Positions 8,304-48,291 of a stretch of 64,000 nt of DNA are shown piece after piece (the stretch's first letter is position 1; each line of letters begins with the position of its first letter). Under the pieces are notes generated by a model that worked only from the letters and a program-made list of their open reading frames with translations, was not told the DNA's origin and did not search any database. Origin of the DNA: Arthrobacter sp. MSA 4-2 (GTDB lineage: Bacteria > Actinomycetota > Actinomycetes > Actinomycetales > Micrococcaceae); contig NZ_JAEKGC010000003.1 of assembly GCF_016405885.1 (NCBI RefSeq), positions 1-64,000 of the forward strand, in the 5' to 3' direction. A program made the position numbers and the translations under genes.

Positions 8304-8395
8304 TGGCCTGCATCTTTCACAGAGGGGGGGGCGGCAGTCAAGGGAAAACTGCCCAGACAAGCGTATTGAGGTCCAGCCGCTGGGACTGAATCCGT

Positions 8396-8432
8396 CCACA
8401 TGGTGAGATGGTTAACCAGGGCCACCATGTGG
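8396..8432. promoter_or_regulatory. Concentric palindromes upstream of the permease
   Basis: CCACATGGTG (8396-8405) pairs perfectly with CACCATGTGG (8423-8432). GGTTAACC (8410-8417), itself a palindrome, is almost centred between them. It lies upstream of the permease start at 8303 and beyond the MmpL terminator, so it is a candidate operator or RNA hairpin. Confidence 0.4.
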
Positions 8433-8511
8433 TCCTCCGGCGTTTCTCCGGAGGGCGTGCGTCCGGGGGCGTCGGGACCCCATCCGCGACCCCGAAAGCG
8501 GCCGCTGCATA

Positions 8512-8558
8512 CGAAACGACCGCCGCGCCGGATATATCAGGTGCGGCGGTCGCTTTCG
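8512..8558 (-). terminator. Terminator downstream of the MmpL gene
   Basis: CGACCGCCGC (8517-8526) pairs with GCGGCGGTCG (8543-8552), with further CGAAA/TTTCG pairing outside. Read on the minus strand, TTTCGT follows the stem, just beyond the MmpL stop. Confidence 0.6.
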
Positions 8559-8591
8559 GGCCGCTCGGTCGCGAAGCGGTACGCCTGGCGG

Positions 8592-11138
8592 TCAGCCCGC
8601 TGCCGGCACGGCCTCCCGCTGGGGCTCGGGCCGCGGGGTGAGCTTCGCCCCCTCGACGTCGACGTCGGGCAGGATCTTATCCAGCCAGCGCGGCAGCCAC
8701 CAGGCCTTCCGGCCCAGCAGGTACATCGCGGCGGGCACGAGCGTCATGCGCACCACGAAGGCGTCGAGGAGCACCCCGAAGGCCAGCCCGAACCCGATCG
8801 GCCGGACCATGGTGAGGTGGGAGAACACGAAGCCGGCGAACACCGACACCATGATGATCGCCGCGGCCGTCACGACCCGTGCGCCGTGGCTGAAACCGAC
8901 CCGCACCGCGGCCCGGGCGCCTCCGCCGTGGACGTACGCCTCGCGCATCCCCGAGACGAGGAACATTTGGTAGTCCATCGCCAGGCCGAACAGCACCCCG
9001 ATCAGGATGATGGGCAGGAAGCTCAGGATCGGCCCGGGGTTGGTCACGCCGAAGAGGTCCCCGAACCAGCCCCACTGGTAGATCGCCACGGTGGCCCCGA
9101 AGCTCGCCAGCAGCGAGAGCAGGAACCCGGCGGTGGCGATGAGCGGCACGAGCACCGAGCGGAACACCAGCAGGAGCAGGATCAGCGAAAGCCCGACGAC
9201 GATGCCCAGGTACAGCGGCATGGCCTCCATCAGCCGGGCCGAGACATCGATGTTCGCGGCCGTCTGGCCCGTCACCGACACGGAGACCCCGGTCCGGTCC
9301 TCGATGTCGTCGGAGGAGGCGCGCAGGGTGCGCACGAGGTCCTCGGTGGATTCGCTGGCCGGCCCCTCCTCCGGAAGCACCTGGAAGACGGCGGTGCGCC
9401 CGTCGGCGCTCACCGAGGCGGGAATCGAGGCGGCGACCTCCGGGATGTCCGCCAGCAGGTCGTTGACGTCGAGCTGCAGTTCGGCCAGTTCGGCCTCGCC
9501 CGCGGTTGCGGGCATCGCCCCGACGACGATCAGCGGCCCGTTGGCGCCCTCTCCGAACTTCTCGTCGACGGTGCTGTAGGCCTGGAAGGCGGTGGAGTCG
9601 GCGGGCTCGGATCCGCCGTCGGGCAGGCCGACCCGCAGCTGGGCCGCGGGGACCGCGATGGCGCCGAGCAGCAGGATGCCTGCCACGAGGGTAAGGGCGG
9701 GCCTGCGGGTGACGAACCCGCCCCAGCCGCGGCCGCGCTCGGCCCGCCGGTCCTGGGTCCGCTGCTCCTCCTCCGAGGAGGCCCCGCCGGACCGGCTGGC
9801 GTTGCGGGCCCACGCCCGCGCGGAGATGAGCCGGGTGCCGAGAACGGCGAGCAGGGCCGGGGTGAGGGTCAGGGCCACGAGCACCGAGACGGCGACAGTT
9901 CCCGCGGCGGACAGGCCCATGACGGTGAGGAACGGCAGGCCGGGCACGGCGAGCGCTGCCAGCGCGACTACGACCGTGAGCCCTGCGAAGAGCACGGCGT
10001 TGCCGGCGGTGCCCGTGGCCCGGCCGACCGACTCCTCAAGCCCCATCCCGTGCAGGAGCTGCGTGCGGTGCCGGTTCACGATGAACAGGGAGTAGTCGAT
10101 GCCCACGGCCAGGCCCAGCATCAGCGCCAGGACCGGGGAGATGCTGTTCATCTCGATGATCCCTGACAGGGCGAAGGTGATGCCCACCCCGACGCCGACG
10201 CCGATCACGGCCATCAGGAGCGGCAGGCCCGCGGCGACGAGCGTACCCAGCATGAGGACAAGGACCAGGGCGGCGACGAGCAGGCCGATGATCTCGGCGT
10301 AGCCGAAGATCTCGGAGACGTCCTCGACGATGTCCTTGCTGTAGTCCACGGTGACGCCGCCACCTGCGGCGGCCGCGGCCTCCTCCTGCACGGCTTCACG
10401 CAGCTCCGGGGACACGGCGTTGATTGACTTCTCAAACTGGACGCTGGCGACGGCGGCGGAGCGGTCGTCCGCCACCAGCCGGACGCCCGAGGAGGCCTCG
10501 AGGCGGCGTTCGGCCAGTTCGAGCTCGGTGCGGCCCTGTTCGAGTTCGGCGGCGCTGCCCTCGAGCTCGGCCCGGCCGGCGTCGAGGCGCTCCTGCCCCG
10601 CGGCCAGCTGGGCCCGGGCGGCATCCAGAGCAGGACCCGGCAGGGAGGGTGCGCTATGTTCAAGCTGGTCCCGCTGGGCGTCGAGCTCCTGCTGGCCCTG
10701 CTCAAGCCCGGCCCGGCCGGCCTCGAGCTGCTCCTCCCCGGAGGCGAGGTCGGCCCTTCCGCTCTCGAGTTCGGCCCTTCCGCCTTCGAGCTGCTCCGTC
10801 ACGGCGAAGGGGTCGACGACCGACCTCACGCCGTCGAGGCCGGCGACGCCGGCGAGGGCCTCCCGGACCGCGGACTCCTGGTCCGGGGTGAAGGCCGCGC
10901 CGTCATCGGTCCGGAAGACGACCGTCCCGGTGCCGCCGACGGCCTCGGGCAGTTCGCGCCGCAGCTGGTCCGCGACCCGCTGGGACTCGGTGCCGGGGAT
11001 GGAGAAGTTGTTGGTGAGGGTGCCGGAGAAGAAGACGGCGGAGGCACCCACGGCCACCATCACCGTCAGCCAGGCGGAGACGACCCACCACCGCCTGCGG
11101 TAGGCGAACTTGCCGAGCCGGTAGAGCAGAAATGCCAT
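8592..11138 (-). CDS. MMPL family RND transporter
   Basis: An 848-residue inner-membrane RND exporter of the MmpL/YdfJ type, with two repeats of membrane bundle and extracytoplasmic domain. The first membrane segment is at about 18-38. The first extracytoplasmic loop contains a repetitive segment (about 117-215) built on an LxxGRAxL pattern, expected to form a long coiled coil. Conserved membrane motifs GLAVGIDYSLFIVNRHR and GLAMDYQMFLVSGMRE mark the two proton-relay helices. It lies 44 bases downstream of a TetR regulator on the same strand, so it is probably derepressed by its substrate. Likely cargo is lipid, drug or siderophore; not known. Confidence 0.9.
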   Translation of the reverse strand: MAFLLYRLGKFAYRRRWWVVSAWLTVMVAVGASAVFFSGTLTNNFSIPGTESQRVADQLRRELPEAVGGTGTVVFRTDDGAAFTPDQESAVREALAGVAGLDGVRSVVDPFAVTEQLEGGRAELESGRADLASGEEQLEAGRAGLEQGQQELDAQRDQLEHSAPSLPGPALDAARAQLAAGQERLDAGRAELEGSAAELEQGRTELELAERRLEASSGVRLVADDRSAAVASVQFEKSINAVSPELREAVQEEAAAAAGGGVTVDYSKDIVEDVSEIFGYAEIIGLLVAALVLVLMLGTLVAAGLPLLMAVIGVGVGVGITFALSGIIEMNSISPVLALMLGLAVGIDYSLFIVNRHRTQLLHGMGLEESVGRATGTAGNAVLFAGLTVVVALAALAVPGLPFLTVMGLSAAGTVAVSVLVALTLTPALLAVLGTRLISARAWARNASRSGGASSEEEQRTQDRRAERGRGWGGFVTRRPALTLVAGILLLGAIAVPAAQLRVGLPDGGSEPADSTAFQAYSTVDEKFGEGANGPLIVVGAMPATAGEAELAELQLDVNDLLADIPEVAASIPASVSADGRTAVFQVLPEEGPASESTEDLVRTLRASSDDIEDRTGVSVSVTGQTAANIDVSARLMEAMPLYLGIVVGLSLILLLLVFRSVLVPLIATAGFLLSLLASFGATVAIYQWGWFGDLFGVTNPGPILSFLPIILIGVLFGLAMDYQMFLVSGMREAYVHGGGARAAVRVGFSHGARVVTAAAIIMVSVFAGFVFSHLTMVRPIGFGLAFGVLLDAFVVRMTLVPAAMYLLGRKAWWLPRWLDKILPDVDVEGAKLTPRPEPQREAVPAAG

Positions 11139-11182
11139 TGGAAGTGTCCTTGGGTGACGGAGGTGGGGTGGGCGTGTGCGGA

Positions 11183-11800
11183 TCAGGCGGGGTGTGCGAA
11201 GCCGTCCCGGAGCATTGAGAGCGCCAGCACCATGCGCTCCTCGAGGGCGGCACCGGCGTCCCCGTGCCGGTCGGGGTCGTCGGCGGCCCAGTCGTGCATC
11301 GCCGCCTTGGCGCAGGAGAGCACCGAGCCGACGAGGGCGCTGACGTAGAGGGGCGACGCGCCGCCCTGGAGGTGGTGGGTGACGGCCTCGATGATCCGGG
11401 CTTCCGCCCGTTCCCAGGCGTGCAGCTGGGCCCGCAGCAGTTCCGGGCTGCCCGCCGCCATGCGGAAGAGCTCGCCATGCACGGCGAGGTCCTGGACCTT
11501 GGCGGTGGCCGCGAGCGCGGCGATCATGGCGTCGAGCAGCGGCTCCCCCGCCGGGCGCCGGGAGAAACTGGAGATGGCGAGTTCGAGGAAGGACTCGGTG
11601 CTGACGTTCAGGGCTTCCTCGGCGCTGTGGAAGTAGTTGAAGAAGGTGCGCCGGGAGACACCGGCCCGGGCCGCGATCTGGTCCACGGTGAACGATCCGG
11701 CCCCCTTGCTGCGGGCGAGGGTGAGCGCGGCCTCGGCGATCGCCCGGCGGGTGTCGATCTTGTTCTGCTCCCGACGGCCGACAGGCTCCGGGGGCTCCAC
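11183..11800 (-). CDS. TetR family regulator of the MmpL transporter
   Basis: A 205-residue TetR repressor. The N-terminal helix-turn-helix spans about 14-60 (TVDQIAARAGVSRRTFFNYFHSAEEAL). The C-terminal half is a variable ligand domain with AMHDWAADDPD near the end. GTG 11800 is chosen because GAGGA lies four bases in front; a GTG at 11821 in the same frame has no ribosome-binding site. It is followed by the MmpL exporter, and a palindrome at 11843-11857 upstream suggests autoregulation of the pair. Confidence 0.88.
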   Translation of the reverse strand: MEPPEPVGRREQNKIDTRRAIAEAALTLARSKGAGSFTVDQIAARAGVSRRTFFNYFHSAEEALNVSTESFLELAISSFSRRPAGEPLLDAMIAALAATAKVQDLAVHGELFRMAAGSPELLRAQLHAWERAEARIIEAVTHHLQGGASPLYVSALVGSVLSCAKAAMHDWAADDPDRHGDAGAALEERMVLALSMLRDGFAHPA

Positions 11801-11842
11801 CGCGTCCTCAACCGTTTGCACGCTTTGACGTTACGCCAAAAG

Positions 11843-11857
11843 TTGCACGGTGTGCAA
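11843..11857. promoter_or_regulatory. Candidate TetR operator for the TetR-MmpL unit
   Basis: A perfect inverted repeat TTGCAC-GGT-GTGCAA, 43 bases upstream of the preferred TetR start. A further TTGCAC half-site occurs at 11816-11821. It lies between this unit and the divergent aldo/keto reductase, so it could also act on that gene. Confidence 0.6.
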
Positions 11858-11947
11858 GAAATATTCCGGCGGGGAGGAGGTGGACTAAAGACCGGGCCCG
11901 CCACACCGGTCTAGGCTTGCCCGAAAACCTCACCGAAAGGCGTCGAA

Positions 11948-12922
11948 ATGAAGCACCTCACCCTGGGACAGGACCTGGAGGTCTCGCGGCTGGGCCTCGG
12001 CTGCATGGGCATGTCGGCCTTCTACACCGGCAGCGGCACCGACGACGACGCCGCCGTGCGCACCCTCCACCACGCGCTCGACCTGGGCATCACCTTGTTC
12101 GACACGGCCGAGATCTACGGTCCGTACACGAATGAGGAACTGCTGGGCCGGGCCTTCGCCGACCGGCGGGATCGGGTGGTGATCGCCTCCAAGTTCGGCG
12201 TCATCCGCCACACCGGTTCGGGCGAGCGGGGCCTGGACGGCAGCCCGGCGAATGTGCGCCTGGCGGTCGAGGGGTCGCTGCGGCGCCTCCGCACCGACTA
12301 CATCGACCTGTACTACCAGCACCGGATGGACCCCGCCGTCCCCGTCGAGGAAACGATGGGCGCCCTGGCCGAACTGGTCGAGCAGGGAAAGATCCGGCAT
12401 ATCGGCCTGTCCGAGGCGGCGCCGGCCACCCTCCGCCGGGCCCACGCCGTGCACCCGGTGACGGCGCTGCAGACCGAATACTCACTGTGGACCCGCGACC
12501 CCGAGCAGGAGATCCTCCCGCTGGTGCGCGAACTCGGCATCGGGTTCGTTCCGTACTCGCCCCTGGGCCGCGGATTCCTTACCGGGACCATTCGCAGCCT
12601 CGACCAGCTCGACGAGGCGGACGTCCGGCGCTACAACCCGCGTTTCGCCGGGGACAACCTCGAAGCGAACATCCGGATTGTCGAACAGGTCGACGCCGTG
12701 GCGCGGCAGGTCGGAGCGACCCCCGGGCAGGTGGCCCTCGCCTGGCTGCTCGCCCAGGATGGTGACCTTGCGCCCATTCCGGGCACCCGCAGGATCGAGC
12801 ACCTCGAGGAAAATATCGCCGCCGAGGCCCTCGAGCTCTCGGGTGATCACCTCGCCGCGCTCAGCGCGGTCGCCGCGCCGGTCGGGGACCGGTATGCGGA
12901 CATGTCGACGGTGAACCGCTGA
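11948..12922 (+). CDS. Aldo/keto reductase
   Basis: A 324-residue NADPH-dependent oxidoreductase with the (beta/alpha)8 fold, reducing aldehydes or ketones in the cytoplasm. The catalytic tetrad is visible: Asp and Tyr in FDTAEIYGPY, Lys in VIASKFG, His in YYQHRMDP. The C-terminal cofactor motif is PIPGTRRIEHLEENI. ATG 11948 has AAAGG about 8 bases upstream. It is divergent from the TetR-MmpL unit and convergent with the amidase. The subfamily looks like AKR13-type; substrate unknown. Confidence 0.93.
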   Translation: MKHLTLGQDLEVSRLGLGCMGMSAFYTGSGTDDDAAVRTLHHALDLGITLFDTAEIYGPYTNEELLGRAFADRRDRVVIASKFGVIRHTGSGERGLDGSPANVRLAVEGSLRRLRTDYIDLYYQHRMDPAVPVEETMGALAELVEQGKIRHIGLSEAAPATLRRAHAVHPVTALQTEYSLWTRDPEQEILPLVRELGIGFVPYSPLGRGFLTGTIRSLDQLDEADVRRYNPRFAGDNLEANIRIVEQVDAVARQVGATPGQVALAWLLAQDGDLAPIPGTRRIEHLEENIAAEALELSGDHLAALSAVAAPVGDRYADMSTVNR

Positions 12923-40940: not shown

Positions 40941-42446
40941 ATGGCCATCTCCCTTGCAGATCTGCTCGCCGTCTCCAGCCTCCGCCTGGTTCCCGCCGGC
41001 GGTGCCCCCGCGTCGGACACGCCGATCGGCTGGATTGCGGTGACCGAACTCGAGGATCCGCTGCCGTTCCTCAGCGGCGGCGAGGTGGTCCTGACGACGG
41101 GGGTGCGGCAGACGACTCCCGCCGCGCAGCGCCGCTTCGTGCGCCGGGTCTCCGAGGCCGGCGGCCTCGCCGTCGGCTTCGGGGTGGGCCTGTCCCATCA
41201 GCGCATCCCGCCGGCCCTGCTCGAGGAGGCGCATCGGGTGGAACTGCCGGTCTTCGAGGTCCCCTACGAGACGCCCTTCATCGCCATCGGCAAGATCGTT
41301 GCCGATTCCCTCTCCGCGGAGCACTACTCGCGGCTCGAGGACCTTCTCCGGGGCCACCAGGTGCTCGCTGCGGCACTCCTGGGGGGCGGCGGGCTGTCCC
41401 GACTGCTCGAGGAACTGGCGGGCATGCTCGGCACGGACGTGGCCCTCTTCCAGTACGGCACGCGCATCGCGGGCGGGCGGGCACCGGCCGGAACAGTGCC
41501 CGCCGGAACAGTGCCCGCCGGATCAGTGCTGGGAGGATCAGTGCCGGGAGGATCAGTGCCGGGAGGATCAGTGCCGGGAGGATCAGACCGGAGCTGGCAC
41601 CGGGTTCCGGTGGCGACCGGACTGAAGGACCGGTGCACGCTGGTCATCGCCGAGCCGTACGCCCCGGCTGCGATCGTCGACTATGCCCAGAGCCTGATCA
41701 GCGTGGAACTGAGCAACCAGGCCCGCCGCCGGGCGGGCGAACGGGTCACCGCCGGACAGCTCCTGCAGGACATCGTGCGCGGCGCGCTCGCCGGGCCCGA
41801 CGCCGTCGCCCGCCTGGGCAGCACCGGCCTGGACTGCACCGGCCGGCACGTGGTGGTGGCAGTGGAGGTGGCGTCGGGGCAGCGGAAGGCCCTGCGGACC
41901 CTGCCGCTGCCCGAGGACTGCGCCGGTGTCCTCACGGCCCTGCTGGATGACCGGCTGCTCGTCCTGGCCCCCGAACCGGACGGCGCCGGGCTGGGCACCC
42001 GGCTGGGCGCCTACCTCCACGCGGCGGGGTTCACGGCGCGGGTGGGCATCGGCGGTGCCTACGCCCAGCCCAACGGGCTGCGGTGGAGCTACTTCGAGGC
42101 CCGCGAGTCCCTGACCAGGGGCGGGCCGGTGAACCCGCCGAACCGGCTCAGCCTCACGTCGCTGCTGCTCTCCAGCGAGGACGTTCCCCTTGCCGATCTC
42201 GCCGCCGAGGCCCTGTCCCCGCTGGTCGACTTCGACGCAAAGCACGGCGGCGGGCTGATCACCACCCTCGAAAGGTACCTGGCGCTCAATGGGTCGGTGG
42301 CCGCCGTCGCCGACGCCCTTCAGCTGCATCGCAATACCGTGCGCTACCGCCTTCAGCAGATCGCTGACCTGACCGGTTACGACCCGGCGGTCACCGCCGA
42401 TCGGGTGCACCTCTACCTCGCCCTGAATGTGCGGGCGCTGCGGTAG
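40941..42446 (+). CDS. PucR family transcriptional regulator
   Basis: A 501-residue regulator with the PucR N-terminal domain (about 1-125; SLADLLAVSSLRLV, GGEVVLTTGVRQ, LPVFEVPYETPF), a central GGDEF-like CdaR region, and the C-terminal helix-turn-helix LERYLALNGSVAAVADALQLHRNTVRYRLQQI (about 447-478). Residues 183-217 are a repeat of five residues, of the form (G-S/T-V-P-A/G), encoded by 15-bp tandem units, probably a flexible linker. It is divergent from patD-gabT and is probably their activator in response to GABA or a precursor, as is known for PucR-type GabR proteins elsewhere. Confidence 0.9.
   Translation: MAISLADLLAVSSLRLVPAGGAPASDTPIGWIAVTELEDPLPFLSGGEVVLTTGVRQTTPAAQRRFVRRVSEAGGLAVGFGVGLSHQRIPPALLEEAHRVELPVFEVPYETPFIAIGKIVADSLSAEHYSRLEDLLRGHQVLAAALLGGGGLSRLLEELAGMLGTDVALFQYGTRIAGGRAPAGTVPAGTVPAGSVLGGSVPGGSVPGGSVPGGSDRSWHRVPVATGLKDRCTLVIAEPYAPAAIVDYAQSLISVELSNQARRRAGERVTAGQLLQDIVRGALAGPDAVARLGSTGLDCTGRHVVVAVEVASGQRKALRTLPLPEDCAGVLTALLDDRLLVLAPEPDGAGLGTRLGAYLHAAGFTARVGIGGAYAQPNGLRWSYFEARESLTRGGPVNPPNRLSLTSLLLSSEDVPLADLAAEALSPLVDFDAKHGGGLITTLERYLALNGSVAAVADALQLHRNTVRYRLQQIADLTGYDPAVTADRVHLYLALNVRALR
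41487..41591 (+). repeat. 15-bp tandem repeat inside the PucR gene
   Basis: Seven units of 15 bases: two of the form GCCGGAACAGTGCCC, one hybrid (GCCGGATCAGTGCTG), three of GGAGGATCAGTGCCG and one partial unit. Being a multiple of three, copy changes keep the frame. It is a likely polymorphic minisatellite. Confidence 0.85.
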
Positions 42447-42474
42447 CCAAGCGCAGGAAAAGCGCAGGTTCGTA

Positions 42475-42513
42475 AGGATTGGCCGAGTAAGTCCACAGCT
42501 TTACCGCAATCCT
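42475..42513. promoter_or_regulatory. Inverted repeat upstream of the secreted protein
   Basis: AGGATTG (42475-42481) pairs with CAATCCT (42507-42513) over 25 bases. It lies between the PucR stop and the secreted protein. It could be a terminator or an operator; evidence is thin. Confidence 0.3.
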
Positions 42514-42590
42514 CGGACGGACCGGGGAAGCGGCGAATACCGTCGATGGAAGAGCCGGCGCTGGGCCGGTTCACCCGAAGTGAGGTATTC

Positions 42591-43187
42591 GTGAACGTTG
42601 TACAGAAGATCGCCGCTGCCGGTCTCACCGGCATGCTCGCACTGACCCTCGGAGCGGGAGCTGCAAGTGCGGCTCCATCCGCCACGGCGAAGGCCAACCC
42701 CGTCGCCGCCGCCGCCAAGGCCAAGCCGGCCGGCACCTCCAACTCCACCGTCGCCAAGGCCAACCCGGTTGCTGCAACAGCCAAGGCCAAGGCTCCGGTT
42801 GCCGCTGCCAAGACCCTCGTCGCCGGCAAGGCACCGGTGGCAGCCAAGGCGAACCCCGTCGCCGCCGCCGCCAAGGCCAAGGCGCCCGGAACGTCGAACT
42901 CCGAGGCGGCCCATCTGCACTCCAAGGGCTTCCAGAAGAACATCGACAAGCCGAAGCCTCCGGTAGTGGTCGTGCCGCCGGCACCCGAGCCCGAGCCCGC
43001 ACCCGCGCCGGAGCCCGCACCCGAACCCGCACCCGAGCCCGCACCCGCCCCGGAGCCCGCACCCGAACCCGCACCCGAGCCCGCACCCGCCCCGGAGCCC
43101 GCACCGGCACCCGCACCCGCCCCGGAGCCCGCACCCGCACCCGCCCCGGAGCCCGCACCCGAACCCGCACCTGAGCCCGCCGCCTAA
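42591..43187 (+). CDS. Secreted Ala/Lys- and Pro/Glu-rich repeat protein
   Basis: A 198-residue protein of unknown function. Residues 1-28 form a signal peptide (VQKI, hydrophobic AAAGLTGMLALTLGAGAASA, then AAP). Residues about 29-110 are low-complexity Ala/Lys/Pro with an imperfect repeat of KANPVAAAAKAK and GTSNS. Residues about 130-198 are almost only Pro, Glu and Ala (PEPAPAP pattern), ending PEPAA. No LPxTG, lipobox or membrane anchor is seen. GTG 42591 has GAGG five bases upstream. Such Pro-rich tails are known to span or stiffen the cell wall in actinobacteria; a binding role for the basic part is a guess. Confidence 0.8.
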   Translation: MNVVQKIAAAGLTGMLALTLGAGAASAAPSATAKANPVAAAAKAKPAGTSNSTVAKANPVAATAKAKAPVAAAKTLVAGKAPVAAKANPVAAAAKAKAPGTSNSEAAHLHSKGFQKNIDKPKPPVVVVPPAPEPEPAPAPEPAPEPAPEPAPAPEPAPEPAPEPAPAPEPAPAPAPAPEPAPAPAPEPAPEPAPEPAA

Positions 43188-43207
43188 CCAGCTGCGGCGG
43201 TTGTGAT

Positions 43208-43250
43208 GAATGAGGGGCACCGGCGCCGACCGCCGTCGTGCCCCTCATTC
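43208..43250 (+). terminator. Terminator after the secreted protein gene
   Basis: A perfect 13-bp stem: GAATGAGGGGCAC (43208-43220) with GTGCCCCTCATTC (43238-43250), 21 bases after the stop. It also isolates the operon that follows. Confidence 0.75.
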
Positions 43251-43314
43251 GTGCGGCGACACGACGAACTGCGCGGTGCATGGCCAGCTCCGGCCGTAGC
43301 GTTTAATGAGGGAC

Positions 43315-44463
43315 ATGACTGACGCTCCGGATCGACGCCGTGCCCTGGTTGTAGAAGACGACGCCGATATCCGGAGCCTCCTGGTGCAGATCCTCACCAT
43401 GCAGGGCTTCGACGTGACCGAGGCGGGAACCGCCAGGGAGGGACTCCAGGCCGCGCGTCTTGGGGTCGACCTGATCACCCTGGACCTCAACCTGCCCGAC
43501 GGCGACGGCATCGAAATCTGCAGGGAGGTTCGTACCTTCTCCGATGCCTACATCCTCATGATCACCGCCCGCACCGACGAGATCGAACGGCTCACGGGCC
43601 TCGAAACCGGAGCCGACGACTACATCTCCAAGCCGTTCAGCCCGCGCGAACTCGTGGCGCGCCTCAACTCGATCTTCCGCCGCCAGAACCGGCAGAGCGC
43701 CGTCGAGGAGGCCAATGCGACCGAGCGGCGCCGCGCGGCCGAAGTGCAGCAGAGCCTGCTCCCCCGTGACGCGCTCTCCCTCGACGACTACGACCTGGCC
43801 GGCCAGTTCCGACCCTCCCGCAGCGTCGGCGGGGACTTCTACGACTGGTACCGGACCGCCGACGGGCTCCACCTCACCGTCGCCGACGCCATGGGCAAAG
43901 GCATGGGAGCGGCGCTGATCGCCGCCACCGTCCGCGCGGTCATGCGGTCGGTCTCCAACCAGTCGAACATCGATGCGGCGTTCAACGCCGCCGCCCGGGC
44001 CACCGAGCCCGACCTCGACAAGGCCGGATCCTTCGTGACCCTCTTCCACGCCCGGTTCAACACCTCCACCGGCGTTGTCGACTATGTCGACGCCGGCCAC
44101 GGCCTCGCACTTCACATCACGGCCGGTGGCGACTGCACCCGCCTCTCCCCCGGCGGGCCGCCCGTCGGCGCGTGGGCCGGGCAGACCTGGACACCGGGCC
44201 GGCTGGTCCTGGCCCCCGGGGACACCCTCGCGGTCATCAGCGACGGCCTGCTGGACGCCTACCCCACCATCGATGAGTTCACCGCAGCGATGGCCCGGGT
44301 GGTCCATTCGAGCGAGAGCGCCGCACAGGCCTGCGAGACGCTGCTCGGGCTCGCCGACGTGCCCGAGGTCGACGACGACGTCACCGTCGTCATCCTCCGC
44401 CGGAAGGCAGCCGGCGCCACCGGTGACGCCGGGAACCTGCGCGCGGCGGAGCGCACCGGATGA
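43315..44463 (+). CDS. Response regulator fused to PP2C-type phosphatase (RsbU/SpoIIE-like)
   Basis: A 382-residue fusion. The receiver domain (about 8-122) has the acidic pair VVEDD, the phosphorylation site Asp57 in LITLDLNLPDGDG and Lys106 in YISKPFSP. A short coiled linker follows (about 125-150). The SpoIIE/PP2C domain (about 160-370) has the metal aspartates in SVGGDFYDWY (Asp174), VADAMGKGMGAAL (Asp191) and VDDDVTVVIL. Such enzymes dephosphorylate STAS proteins in partner-switching systems, and a STAS gene lies three genes on. ATG 43315 is used; ATG 43306 is an alternative. It overlaps the glycosyltransferase gene by four bases. The sensor kinase is not in the window. Confidence 0.93.
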   Translation: MTDAPDRRRALVVEDDADIRSLLVQILTMQGFDVTEAGTAREGLQAARLGVDLITLDLNLPDGDGIEICREVRTFSDAYILMITARTDEIERLTGLETGADDYISKPFSPRELVARLNSIFRRQNRQSAVEEANATERRRAAEVQQSLLPRDALSLDDYDLAGQFRPSRSVGGDFYDWYRTADGLHLTVADAMGKGMGAALIAATVRAVMRSVSNQSNIDAAFNAAARATEPDLDKAGSFVTLFHARFNTSTGVVDYVDAGHGLALHITAGGDCTRLSPGGPPVGAWAGQTWTPGRLVLAPGDTLAVISDGLLDAYPTIDEFTAAMARVVHSSESAAQACETLLGLADVPEVDDDVTVVILRRKAAGATGDAGNLRAAERTG

Positions 44464-46412
44464 GGATTTTCCCCACCCGCCTCCTGGTGGTCCTGACCCT
44501 CCTGCTGGGCATCAACTATCTCGCATGGCGCTGGCTGGAATCCCTCAACTGGGACGCCTGGTGGATCGCGGTTCCCCTGGTGGCCGCGGAGACCTACAGC
44601 CTGATCGACGTCGGGCTGTTCGGGCTGACCGTGTGGAAGAAGAAGGAGCGCACGGCCCCGCCCGCCCCCGCCGATGCAACTGTCGACGTCTTCATCACCA
44701 CCTACAACGAGCCTCCGGAGATGGTGCTGGAGACCGCACTCGCGGCGAAGACCATCCGGCACCCGCACAGCACCTGGATCCTCGACGACGGAGGACGCGA
44801 GGAGGTGCGGGAGCTGGCACGGCAGCATGGCCTCGGCTACCTCACGCGGGGCCCGGACTGGGCGGACCGGCCCCGGCACGCCAAGGCGGGCAACCTCAAC
44901 AACGCACTCATGGAGACCCAGGGCGAGTTCCTGCTGATCCTCGACGCCGACCAGATCCCCGATCCCGCGATCCTCGAGAAGACCCTCGGCTACTTCAACA
45001 ACCGGCGGGTGGCCCTGGTCCAGACCCCGCAGTACTTCGCCAATGTGCCCGACGACGACCCGCTGGGCAGCCAGGCCCCGCTGTTCTATGGACCGATCCA
45101 GCAGGGTAAAGACGGCTGGAACGCGGCCTTCTTCTGCGGATCCAATGCCGTCCTGCGGCGCGAGGCCCTCATGCAGCTCGGCCTGGCCGGCTACGTCAAG
45201 GAGATCGAGCAGGGCGTCACCAGGGCACTGAAGGCCTCCCGGACCGCCCTGCGCCGGGCCCGCAGATCGCCCGAGGCGGCCGACCCCCTGGTCGCGGGGC
45301 TGCTCGACGACGTCGAGTCGGCAACGGAGCGGGCGCGGGCGGAACTGCGCGCGGGGGTGTCCCTCAGCGAGGTCACCTACCGGGTCCGCCGGACCGTCGA
45401 CGGCGCCGTGCAGTCCCTGGTCGGCGCCGACTTCTTATCGCTGGAGGCCGACCTGGCCGACATTGCGGCCCTCGAACAGGGTACGGAACCCGCCCTTCCT
45501 AGCGGGGGCGAACTGGACGGCGCGATCGAACGCATGTCCCACCGCGACCTGTCCCCGCTGGCGGCCCTGGCGTCGGTCCAGGCGGTCCTCGACGCCCTCT
45601 CGATCGAGCGCTCCGCGGAGGCCCAGCCGATCATGCCGATGGCGACCATCTCCGTCACCGAGGACATGGCCACCTCCATGGGGATGCACGCCATGGGCTG
45701 GCAGAGCGTCTACCACCACGAAATCCTCGCCACCGGACTGGCCCCCGAGGACCTTTCGACCATGCTGACGCAGCGGCTGCGCTGGGCGCAGGGCACCATC
45801 CAGGTCCTGCTGCGGGAGAATCCGCTGGTCCGCCGCGGCCTGGGACTGGCGCAGCGCCTGATGTACTTTGCGACGATGTGGTCCTACCTCAGCGGCTTCG
45901 CGGCCGTCGTCTACTTCGCCGCCCCGGTCATCTACCTCACCCTCGGCGTGCTTCCGGTGACCGGGATCAGTTCCGAGTTCTTCCTCCGCTTCGTGCCGTT
46001 CATGGTGGTCAACCAGCTGCTGTTCGCGGTCACCGGCCGGGGCATCCCCACCTGGCGCGGCCAGCAGTACAGCCTGGCCCTGTTCCCGACGTGGATCCGG
46101 GCCTGCACGACGGCGGCCCGCAACGTGTGGTTCGGGCGCCCGCTGGGCTTCGCCGTCACCCCCAAGACCCGCCAGGAATCCGGACCCCGCTGGGACCTGA
46201 TCCGGCCGCAGCTGATCGTGATGGCACTGCTCGCCGCAGCACTTATGGTGGGGGTGGTCAGGCTTGCGGCCGGGCTCAACGAGCCGATCGGAACCCTCGT
46301 CAACGTGGCCTGGGTGGCCTTCGACCTGCTGGTCCTCAGTGTGCTGATCAAGGCAGTAAAGTACAAGGGGTTCACCCCCGAAAAGAGGAGCGTAGATGCG
46401 GTTCAGCACTGA
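44460..46412 (+). CDS. Cellulose-synthase-like glycosyltransferase 2 with an extra domain
   Basis: A 650-residue processive GT2. Two membrane helices open it (about 5-25, 36-58). The catalytic core has DVFITTYNEPPEMV, DDGG at 109-112, DAD at 162-164, FFCGSNAVLRREAL at 224-237, TED at 400-402 and the QRLRW (QxxRW) motif at 438-442. Four or more helices follow (about 465-620). No PilZ domain is seen. In BcsA-type enzymes FFCGS and TED are about 20 residues apart; here about 150 mostly helical residues (about 242-395) lie between. It overlaps its neighbours on both sides, so the polymer it makes is probably under control of the partner-switching proteins. Polymer unknown. Confidence 0.88.
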   Translation: MRIFPTRLLVVLTLLLGINYLAWRWLESLNWDAWWIAVPLVAAETYSLIDVGLFGLTVWKKKERTAPPAPADATVDVFITTYNEPPEMVLETALAAKTIRHPHSTWILDDGGREEVRELARQHGLGYLTRGPDWADRPRHAKAGNLNNALMETQGEFLLILDADQIPDPAILEKTLGYFNNRRVALVQTPQYFANVPDDDPLGSQAPLFYGPIQQGKDGWNAAFFCGSNAVLRREALMQLGLAGYVKEIEQGVTRALKASRTALRRARRSPEAADPLVAGLLDDVESATERARAELRAGVSLSEVTYRVRRTVDGAVQSLVGADFLSLEADLADIAALEQGTEPALPSGGELDGAIERMSHRDLSPLAALASVQAVLDALSIERSAEAQPIMPMATISVTEDMATSMGMHAMGWQSVYHHEILATGLAPEDLSTMLTQRLRWAQGTIQVLLRENPLVRRGLGLAQRLMYFATMWSYLSGFAAVVYFAAPVIYLTLGVLPVTGISSEFFLRFVPFMVVNQLLFAVTGRGIPTWRGQQYSLALFPTWIRACTTAARNVWFGRPLGFAVTPKTRQESGPRWDLIRPQLIVMALLAAALMVGVVRLAAGLNEPIGTLVNVAWVAFDLLVLSVLIKAVKYKGFTPEKRSVDAVQH

Positions 46413-46728
46413 ACAGAAGGACTCCTACACCGAGGTGTCCGGCACCGGACGGCTCAATATGGTTGCGGCGCCGAAGCTGCGCGAGGTGGTCGGCGAAGTG
46501 GTCTCGGCGGGAAACAAGCGCATCGTCCTCAATATGCTGGCCACTGACTTCATCGACTCCTCGGGCCTGGGCGCCCTGATCGGCTGCCTGAAGATGGCCC
46601 GCCAGGCCGGCGGAGACCTCCGCATCGCCTGTGTGCAGCCCCAGGTGAAGATGGTCCTGGAGCTGACCAGCATGAACCGGGTCCTGACACCGCATGCCAC
46701 GGCCGAAGGCGCCTTCTCCAATGACTGA
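46396..46728 (+). CDS. STAS domain anti-sigma factor antagonist
   Basis: A 110-residue single STAS domain like SpoIIAA/RsbV. The phosphorylation loop is LATDFIDSSGLGALIG, with serine at 55 or 56 as the kinase target. GTGRLNMVAAPKLREVV is the usual first part. It starts 17 bases inside the glycosyltransferase gene and its stop overlaps the kinase gene by 8 bases, so all are translated together. In partner switching it binds the kinase when unphosphorylated; here it may instead or also act on the glycosyltransferase (inference). Confidence 0.92.
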   Translation: MRFSTEQKDSYTEVSGTGRLNMVAAPKLREVVGEVVSAGNKRIVLNMLATDFIDSSGLGALIGCLKMARQAGGDLRIACVQPQVKMVLELTSMNRVLTPHATAEGAFSND

Positions 46729-47149
46729 GGTGCTCGCCCAGCGCGCCTACCAGGCGCCCGCGACCCCCGAGGCGATCGACGAACTCCACACCGAGCTCGA
46801 CCGGATCTGGGAGGTCGCCTCCTTCGTTCCCGAACTCGACCAGATGGCCTTCACCACCGCGGTGATCGAGTCCGCCTCGAACGTGGTGCAGCACGGCGTC
46901 GCGGTGCCCGGCGGCGAGCTCCGGCTGGCCGTCACGCTGACCGTCATGGCCTCGGTGCTGCAGGCCCGCATCTCGGAGATCGGTGCCGTGCCCTCGCCGG
47001 AGATGCCGTCGGGCTCCCTGCCCGACGACGACGAGGAGAGCGGCCGGGGCCTGGCCCTGATCGAGGCGCTGATGACCACGATCACCGTGGAACTGCGGGG
47101 CGAAACGAAGACCTGGGTGCTTTCGCGGGAGATCGAAACCCCGGCCTGA
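46721..47149 (+). CDS. ATP-binding anti-sigma-type serine kinase (HATPase, RsbW-like)
   Basis: A 142-residue GHKL ATPase of the RsbW/SpoIIAB type. The N box is TAVIESASNVVQHG (Glu, Asn and His present) and the G box ESGRGLALIEAL. It would phosphorylate the STAS protein and might bind a sigma factor, but none is encoded nearby. ATG 46721 overlaps the STAS stop by 8 bases; an upstream in-frame ATG at 46694 is less likely. It is the last gene of the operon. Confidence 0.9.
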   Translation: MTEVLAQRAYQAPATPEAIDELHTELDRIWEVASFVPELDQMAFTTAVIESASNVVQHGVAVPGGELRLAVTLTVMASVLQARISEIGAVPSPEMPSGSLPDDDEESGRGLALIEALMTTITVELRGETKTWVLSREIETPA

Positions 47150-47170
47150 CCCACCCCTGAAAAGGACTTC

Positions 47171-47791
47171 ATGACCGCCGCGTCCCAGATCGCCCTGATC
47201 CTTGACCTGCTGGGCGTCTTCTTCTTCGCCGTCTCAGGCTCCCTGCTGGCCGCACGCAAGGGCTTCGACCTCGTGGGCTCGCTGCTGCTTGCCTCCCTCG
47301 CGGGCCTCGGCGGCGGCGTCGCGCGCGACGTCATCATCGACACCCCGCCGGCGGCGTTCAGCAATCCGGCCTACCTCATTCCTCCCCTGCTGGCGACGGT
47401 GCTGGTCTACTTCACCGTGGCGGGGGTGGAACGGATCAAGCGGGTCGTGGTCATCTTCGACGCCGGCGGGCTGGCCCTGTTCTGCGTCACCGGGACCGTG
47501 AAGGCCCTGGATTTTGGCCTCAACCCCGTTGCCGCCGTCCTGCTGGGCGTGACGACCGGGGTGGGCGGGGGCCTGCTGCGGGACGTGGTGGCCAACGAGG
47601 TGCCGCAGCTGTTCGACCCGCGCGACATCTACGCGCTCCCCGCCATGCTTGGCGCCGCCGTCGTGGCCCTGCTCGTCGGGGCCGGGTGGTTCAACCTGTT
47701 CAGCGGCACCGCGGCCGCGTCCGTCGTCTTTGTGCTGCGCCTGCTGTCCTGGCGGTACGGGTGGCGGGCACCGCTCGCATCGCGGACCTAG
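47171..47791 (+). CDS. TRIC family cation channel protein (UPF0126)
   Basis: A 206-residue membrane protein with seven hydrophobic segments in two repeats, each with a glycine-rich signature: LAGLGGGVARDVIIDTPP and TGVGGGLLRDVVANEVP. These are diagnostic of the YadS/UPF0126 family, prokaryotic homologs of trimeric intracellular cation channels. ATG 47171 has AAAAGGA close upstream. It lies 21 bases after the HATPase stop and may be read through from that operon, although no functional link is evident. Confidence 0.93.
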   Translation: MTAASQIALILDLLGVFFFAVSGSLLAARKGFDLVGSLLLASLAGLGGGVARDVIIDTPPAAFSNPAYLIPPLLATVLVYFTVAGVERIKRVVVIFDAGGLALFCVTGTVKALDFGLNPVAAVLLGVTTGVGGGLLRDVVANEVPQLFDPRDIYALPAMLGAAVVALLVGAGWFNLFSGTAAASVVFVLRLLSWRYGWRAPLASRT

Positions 47792-47865
47792 GCGGCGGGC
47801 CGGTCACCGTGCCCCGCATTGGAGGATAGGATGGAGCCTTCCCCCAATCCCATCTGGAGTTTTTC

Positions 47866-48291
47866 GTGACCGAGCTGTTCCTGGACAAGTTCCGTGCCCT
47901 GGTTCCTGCCTACTTTGACGACCAGTGGGAAGAGGAGGACGGCCTCTCGCCCGCCGAGATCGACGAGCTGATGGAGGGGAAGAATTTCCCGCTGCCCCAG
48001 GCCCTGCGCGAGTTCTACCTCGCCGTCGGGGCGACCGAGGACATCATGGAGGCGTTCCACTTCTTCTGGGACCCGGACGAGCTTGAGATCGAAGACGGCT
48101 TCCTGCTGTTCCTTGAGGACGAGGACGAGCAGTACACCTGGGGCATGCGCGCCGACCAACTGTCGGTGCCCGACCCGATCATCTGGCGCCGCAACAATGC
48201 CCGCGGCGAGTGGCAGAGCGAAGAGGGAACGTTCAGCGAGTATGTCCTGGACCTGTTCGAGTGGGTGTTCGAAGACACCGACGAGGACTGA
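47866..48291 (+). CDS. SMI1/KNR4 (SUKH-like) family protein
   Basis: A 141-residue very acidic protein that looks like the SUKH fold: LSPAEIDELM followed by FPLPQALREFYLAVG, an aromatic strand stretch AFHFFWDPDELEIEDGFLLFLEDEDEQYTWGM, then DPIIWRRN. SUKH proteins include immunity proteins of toxin systems as well as housekeeping members; no toxin gene is adjacent. GTG 47866 has GGAG six bases upstream. It lies one base before the HIT gene, so the two are probably co-transcribed. Assignment rests on pattern resemblance only. Confidence 0.68.
   Translation: MTELFLDKFRALVPAYFDDQWEEEDGLSPAEIDELMEGKNFPLPQALREFYLAVGATEDIMEAFHFFWDPDELEIEDGFLLFLEDEDEQYTWGMRADQLSVPDPIIWRRNNARGEWQSEEGTFSEYVLDLFEWVFEDTDED

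Follow-up and report, generated by a model that had tools for sequence, protein, structure and literature searches.

In textbooks, bacterial cellulose-like polymers are switched by cyclic diguanylate (c-di-GMP), and in RsbU/V/W partner switching (PS) the kinase RsbW inhibits a sigma factor. In SiaABCD, HsbA-HsbD and BgrV-BgrR a PP2C phosphatase, a kinase and a STAS or STAS-like protein control a biofilm or glucan enzyme and not a sigma factor, with the STAS-type protein acting directly on that enzyme (SiaC activates SiaD; the other pairs are HsbA-HsbD and BgrV-BgrR). Their target is a diguanylate cyclase from which c-di-GMP relays the signal onward, as in the control of mixed-linkage glucan through BgrV in Sinorhizobium (excerpts of PMC8457831). 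The STAS-only protein SypA belongs to a polysaccharide locus of Vibrio fischeri, where SypE joins kinase and phosphatase in one protein, and the PS system HmpUVW of Nostoc is tied to hormogonia motility and polysaccharide; the excerpted parts of PMC8256260 call the targets of SypA and HmpV unknown and mention no GT2 in the Hmp operon. Here we describe a four-gene operon of Arthrobacter sp. MSA 4-2 (GCF_016405885.1) that encodes such a switch together with a BcsA-like processive glycosyltransferase (GT2): a receiver-PP2C fusion (RR-PP2C), the GT2, a STAS-only protein and an RsbW/SpoIIAB-like HATPase. It lies in positions 1-64,000 of the forward strand of contig NZ_JAEKGC010000003.1, a stretch hereafter called the window. 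Among related bacteria, genomes with the synthase tend to have the switch and those without it tend to lack it, and the gene set recurs in Actinomycetota, Pseudomonadota and Cyanobacteriota. Unlike the Sia, Hsb and Bgr systems, the locus has no linked GGDEF gene and no PilZ domain, and the synthase is in the operon itself; unlike SypE, kinase and phosphatase are separate genes, so this is not a SypE-like fusion.

The open reading frames (ORFs) overlap by 4 bases (RR-PP2C/GT2), 17 bases (GT2/STAS) and 8 bases (STAS/HATPase), and their coordinates agree with the four overlapping genes reported by a first-pass annotation of the same DNA. RR-PP2C matches Pfam Response_reg at 90.1 bits and SpoIIE at 112.6 bits, the STAS protein matches Pfam STAS at 61.7 bits and TIGR00377 (ant_ant_sig) at 77.6 bits (cut-off 53.45), and the kinase matches HATPase_c_2 at 38.8 bits (cut-off 27.4). 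The key residues claimed by that annotation for the three regulatory proteins could all be read: Asp57 of the receiver, GGDFYDW, DAMGKG, DAGH, SDGL and DDDVTV in the phosphatase, the STAS serines, and ESASNVVQHG and ESGRGLAL as N and G boxes of the kinase. The RsbU/RsbV/RsbW set is complete and co-encoded, with a PP2C phosphatase, a STAS protein bearing the DSSG serine and a HATPase with both boxes. We propose RR-PP2C as the signal input of the module.

The GT2 matches Pfam Cellulose_synt, Glyco_trans_2_3 and Glycos_transf_2. It carries the D, DxD, TED and QxxRW motifs of a BcsA-type enzyme (DDG, residues 109-111; DAD, 162-164; TED, 400-402; QRLRW, 438-442) together with transmembrane (TM) helices, and its TIGR03030 score of 359 bits lies below the curated cut-off of 699. 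With BcsA it shares the GT2 fold and motifs, the TM arrangement and an FxVTxK gating loop, the motif of which has a predicted local distance difference test score (pLDDT) below 50 in the model. It differs from BcsA in having no PilZ domain, in an insert of about 150 residues before the TED motif and in having PS regulators as immediate neighbours. The insert is mostly helical in the model (H234-268, H276-297, H302-338 and shorter helices), with low confidence in its last third from about residue 331, and is a candidate docking site. Fold searches with the whole GT2 returned BcsA and CesA overall, and we make no claim on how the insert folds. Pfam found no PilZ in the GT2, where no domain follows the last TM helices, and PilZ had no match at E<=0.001 anywhere in the genome; the same library search does detect PilZ in two BcsA relatives (L234 and L238). 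Neither bcs genes nor a GGDEF cyclase were found among the eight ORFs scanned around the operon (40941-48291; the GGDEF_2 of the PucR protein is a different domain). The absence of PilZ noted in the first reading of the sequence extends from the GT2 to the genome. Its corollary, that c-di-GMP is uninvolved, draws on that absence only, and the genome encodes GGDEF proteins.

Table 1. Features of the PS-synthase operon and its upstream flank (window coordinates)
Feature	Position	Strand	Description
RR-PP2C	43315-44463	+	382 amino acids (aa); SpoIIE/RsbU-type PP2C phosphatase with a fused receiver (Asp57) at its N terminus
GT2	44460-46412	+	650 aa; BcsA-like processive glycosyltransferase
GT2 insert	45186-45635	+	About 150 residues (about 243-392) between FFCGS and TED motifs; from alignments and model
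Gating-loop motif	46149-46169	+	FAVTPKT (FxVTxK type), GT2 residues 564-570; from alignment and model
STAS-only protein	46396-46728	+	110 aa; DSSGLG phospho-acceptor motif (Ser55/Ser56)
HATPase	46721-47149	+	142 aa; RsbW/SpoIIAB-like serine kinase
Inverted repeat	43208-43250	+	GAATGAGGGGCAC...GTGCCCCTCATTC; upstream Pro/Ala-rich ORF on one side, operon on the other

We searched 35 genomes of the genus for GT2, STAS, RR-PP2C, SigB/F/G, GH26, OpgC and GGDEF, the HATPase being followed genome-wide in MSA 4-2 only. The GT2 (above 800 bits) is present in 25 of them. All 25 have a STAS-only gene and 23 have RR-PP2C, with G005 and G010 matching its PP2C part only. Among the matches listed for the ten GT2-negative genomes there is no STAS-only ORF (the frames there are at least 433 aa) and no RR-PP2C (matches of at least about 99 bits, the listed ones being receiver-only). 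Beyond those listed there are seven weaker STAS matches (below about 31 bits), in the GT2-negative G008, G015, G017, G021, G023 and G034, and a STAS-only gene from a different family could be among them. The TRIC-flanking loci of the GT2-negative genomes hold no module genes in 10/10 cases. A tree of 34 of the 35 genomes was built from five flanking markers (G005, with a split marker, was left out; G026 is a long branch at 68% completeness, and G015 is 86% complete). On this tree the GT2 label needs 8 changes, which give 7 independent pairs on well-supported branches, and the module goes with the GT2 in 7/7 (p=0.0156); this follows from the presence tallies, because the GT2 and module states form the same vector. 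At the syntenic loci of G012 and G025 (L206 and L210) RR-PP2C is split over two frames, either by sequencing error or by a recent break, and ORFs for STAS and the kinase are present.

A second GT2 type, about 60% identical, occurs in 13 genomes, and an OpgC gene adjoins it at 12 of the 13 loci. All 13 genomes keep RR-PP2C, STAS and HATPase, with no GT2 between, at a syntenic locus identified by the TRIC, SMI1 and HIT genes of the window (PucR is in view in 12). In these genomes co-occurrence is not linkage, because GT2 and module lie at different loci, and the switch therefore persists where the synthase is elsewhere. Among them, G027 carries in addition a GT2 of the first type, and this one too has no module next to it. 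A single deletion removing both neighbours is ruled out by the separate loci as the whole explanation, and may apply at the linked loci. The place of the synthase as second gene, which the first-pass annotation had noted, holds as an order and is not essential as a position, since 13 genomes keep the module without a GT2 inside.

The module might instead be an RsbU/V/W switch of the usual kind, acting on a sigma factor from another locus, with the GT2 as a passenger. The earlier statement that no sigma factor is encoded is right for the operon, and the genome has one SigB/F/G-like gene on contig C3 (202 bits; model cut-off 234). That factor lacks an obvious dedicated anti-sigma kinase, given that no other short HATPase gene was found in the genome and that the remaining 12 matches to PF13581 are in frames of 397-736 aa. 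Against this, sigma presence does not follow module presence among the genus genomes, and the STAS matches listed for the MSA 4-2 genome lie on other contigs. A full sigma gene is present in 7 of the 10 GT2-negative genomes (and a piece at a contig end in G015), and the GT2-positive G005, G010 and G028 have sigma matches of only about 130 bits, of the kind found in nearly every genome. Three matches are partial (half-length in G009, at the contig end in G015, in two pieces in G026). When these are taken as present, sigma goes with GT2 in 0 pairs, against it in 0.5 and shows no difference in 6.5; when they are taken as absent, the figures are 1, 0.5 and 5.5. By co-occurrence the sigma factor thus shows no association with the module. 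One outcome that would have told against the first reading, STAS and kinase proteins serving only a sigma factor elsewhere, is weakened, since the module tracks the synthase and not the sigma factor. We consider the sigma-switch explanation very improbable, and think it likely that the module is dedicated to this synthase system.

The first-pass annotation had looked to conserved synteny outside close relatives, and the same gene order is found there. In a genome-contig collection 496 stretches encode a relative, of which the best 80 were kept (mostly Arthrobacter, Pseudarthrobacter, Paenarthrobacter and Kocuria, plus Planctomonas and Jonesia). The order phosphatase, GT2, STAS, HATPase is intact in 72 of the 80; four more have all three partners in another layout, and four are without at least one in view (L115 is at a contig end). 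In a class-wide sample the GT2 was found at E<=1e-60 in 15/296 genomes, MSA 4-2 included, and 12 of the 14 other loci have the full order (L133 is cut by a contig end and L148 has no PP2C nearby). Planctomonas, Jonesia and Kocuria loci keep the order outside the genus. Among three loci scanned, from three families, a GAF domain replaces the receiver of the phosphatase in all (L137, L139 and L145), so that the signal input varies and the phosphatase, synthase, STAS and kinase genes remain side by side. The GT2 is the sole non-regulatory gene of this conserved four-gene core, operon ends not being called per locus. In four loci of one actinobacterial family a divergent response-regulator gene lies upstream of the phosphatase (L137, OmpR-type; L138, L143 and L147).

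Relatives on plasmids extend the gene set to other phyla. In a tblastn search 530 plasmid records matched, and 15 were opened, mostly from the top of the 60 listed, with Pantoea counted three times and Paracoccus twice. In twelve of the 15 the GT2 is about 602-670 aa long (for Nostoc and Vibrio, the length of the frame) and shows neither a PilZ match nor a C-terminal extension: Nostoc UHCC 0926, Sphingobium RAC03, Pantoea stewartii, Pantoea agglomerans, Pantoea JZ29, two Paracoccus, Salmonella, Rhodobacteraceae SC52, Chimaeribacter, Pseudooceanicola and Vibrio THAF190c. A PP2C and a HATPase gene are in view at all 12 PilZ-less loci, and a STAS gene at 11, the exception being Paracoccus liaowanqingii. 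The proteobacterial loci often also carry DUF3131 genes and genes for OpgC or another acyltransferase. The BcsA proteins of Allocoleopsis and Enterobacter have PilZ, and their genes have bcs genes as neighbours, with none of the PS type in view; a Rhizobium BgsA-type GT2 (L202) has a C-terminal extension, no Pfam PilZ match and, again, no PS genes in view. Like the Pantoea and Salmonella plasmid loci, 'block 3b' of Klebsiella pneumoniae comprises a cellulose synthase, three DUF3131 genes, OpgC, a hybrid kinase and an anti-sigma factor with its antagonist, but the excerpts of that account give it as gene content with no regulatory reading (PMC12974863, 2026). Our literature search found gene lists and no mechanism, and no recognised description of PS control of a PilZ-less GT2. 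Each of the two ingredients, partner switching and BcsA-like synthases, is known. We found no published account of the two paired directly without c-di-GMP, as seen here in three phyla, and the pairing looks like a variant that bypasses c-di-GMP.

Post-translational control of the GT2 is the simplest reading of a core whose sole non-regulatory gene is the synthase, in a genome without PilZ and with no sigma factor that is linked to the module or varies with it. We tentatively favour a form of it in which the unphosphorylated STAS protein docks on the GT2, and we infer the phosphorylation reactions, the direct docking, the direction of its effect and the polymer as follows. A histidine kinase would phosphorylate the receiver of RR-PP2C; the activated phosphatase would take the phosphate off the STAS serine, and the RsbW-like kinase would put it back. 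Unphosphorylated STAS would dock on the cytoplasmic face of the PilZ-less GT2, perhaps aided by the helical insert near the active site, and the docked protein would let the gating loop cycle, so that an extracellular beta-glycan is made and exported. STAS binding would then fill the role that c-di-GMP and PilZ have in BcsA. Precedent favours STAS as the output, as in SiaC-SiaD, HsbA-HsbD and BgrV-BgrR (excerpts of PMC8457831), and the N-terminal STAS domain of the Anabaena glycosyltransferase all4160, given in excerpts of PMC8256260, is a hint that STAS and glycosyltransferases can be joined. That a widespread and so far undescribed class of PilZ-less cellulose-synthase-like enzymes, present in three phyla, is gated directly by STAS or its kinase, with serine dephosphorylation in place of c-di-GMP as the signal that turns polymer extrusion on, we give a little less than an even chance.

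Several observations weigh against this picture. A missing PilZ match alone does not predict PS genes, because Rhizobium L202 has neither; the genome encodes the SigB/F/G-like factor described above and gives four matches to GGDEF proteins. The long insert cannot be a universal dock, because only about 50 residues take its place in proteobacterial GT2 relatives and about half that number in the Nostoc one. When the linked positives are left out of the tree comparison just 2 independent pairs are left, and although both go the same way (p=0.5, consistent and too few alone), much of the 7/7 could stem from neighbours being lost together. No STAS-GT2 or kinase-GT2 fusion occurs among the ORFs of loci L012-L238, and no STAS domain appears in the Pfam annotation among 120 of 220 and 120 of 4377 matches listed. 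Partial distance correlations over 87 loci are 0.40 for STAS and insert, 0.47 for HATPase and insert and 0.49 for STAS and GT2 core; they do not single out STAS, and its correlation with the insert is not specific.

A rival idea is that the kinase is the direct partner, the HATPase binding and inhibiting the GT2 as RsbW does sigma until unphosphorylated STAS pulls it off. Such docking fits the same co-occurrence data as STAS docking, parallels the textbook RsbU/V/W logic with the GT2 in sigma's place, and agrees with the correlation between HATPase and insert, which is no weaker than that between STAS and insert. But the output is a STAS-type protein in the enzyme-controlling precedents SiaC, HsbA and BgrV (excerpts of PMC8457831), and the active form in Vibrio fischeri is unphosphorylated SypA (excerpts of PMC8256260). 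We regard kinase docking as unlikely on its own account, and place it close behind STAS docking.

The polymer genes raise a further alternative, namely that the module acts on another target of the same polysaccharide system, be it transcription of GT2, GH26 or OpgC, a c-di-GMP enzyme, or secretion. GH26-type genes are present in 23/25 GT2-positive genomes and 1/10 GT2-negative ones, and OpgC in 13/25 and 0/10. The single GT2-negative match, in G034, covers nearly the full GH26 profile, as in G014, and most others match part of it. Both may be further parts of the system, and neither is significant on the tree (GH26: 5 pairs with GT2, 1 against, 1 no difference; OpgC: 2.3 with, 0 against, 4.7 no difference). 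Another target would also suit a module that is kept while the GT2 is at another locus, the GGDEF genes of the genome, and the PS systems of Sinorhizobium (BgrV) and Pseudomonas (SiaC, HsbA), which act on diguanylate cyclases (excerpts of PMC8457831). It sits less well with the GT2 as the only non-regulatory gene of the core (though an OpgC gene directly follows the core in L137), with the four operon products, none of which is a DNA-binding, sigma or GGDEF protein, and with a genome without PilZ. We judge it improbable, if somewhat less so than kinase docking. From the GH26-type and OpgC companions, the product of the synthase is probably a modified beta-glycan.

Separately, 13 genomes, GT2-negative ones included, encode, at 1-2 kb from a GGDEF gene, a distant second GT2-like protein with frames of about 760-930 aa and an identity of 21-24% at about residues 398-590 (G002:C8, G005:C24, G007:C1, G008:C183, G010:C1, G011:C2, G015:C24, G017:C38, G021:C1, G022:C3, G025:C5, G026:C241 and G034:C1). 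It is probably a separate, c-di-GMP-linked polysaccharide system.

A sensor kinase gene, recognised by similarity to that of G030, is divergent from RR-PP2C at 13/13 second-type module loci, 12/80 genome-contig loci and 0/14 class or order loci, and no adjacent sensor kinase is found in the window. The MSA 4-2 genome has a homologue at C29:274.8-276.6 kb, 42% identical to the G030 kinase, and that it pairs with RR-PP2C is a guess. Its surroundings (L182, G000:C29:264000-283500, positions 8369-12573) comprise a GH26-type protein, an OmpR-type regulator and this histidine kinase, related to the one on the RR-PP2C side in G030. The GH26-type gene, about 226 kb from the operon, encodes a protein with 70% identity over 408 residues to the product of the gene directly downstream of the kinase gene in G030. 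The cluster is possibly the displaced rest of the system.

In place of the divergent histidine kinase of G030, the window encodes, directly 5' of the operon, a protein with a long Pro-Ala-Glu repeat tail (42546-43187). The inverted repeat that follows (Table 1) is a possible terminator setting the operon apart; it was read from the letters and is not among the sites that a scan gave. Further upstream, a PucR-type regulator (40941-42446) has near-identical five-residue repeats (AGTVP/GGSVP) in mid-protein, at about 41480-41600.

The arrangement suggests a route to extracellular polymer without the usual messenger c-di-GMP. If direct gating is true, processive synthases would have a second mode of gating, independent of the first, in a partner switch based on serine phosphorylation, and a glycosyltransferase would be the missing output of STAS proteins whose target is called unknown, such as SypA and HmpV. 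Here the candidate output of the STAS protein is the sole non-regulatory core gene, which opens the question to a direct test in a soil bacterium, on four genes.

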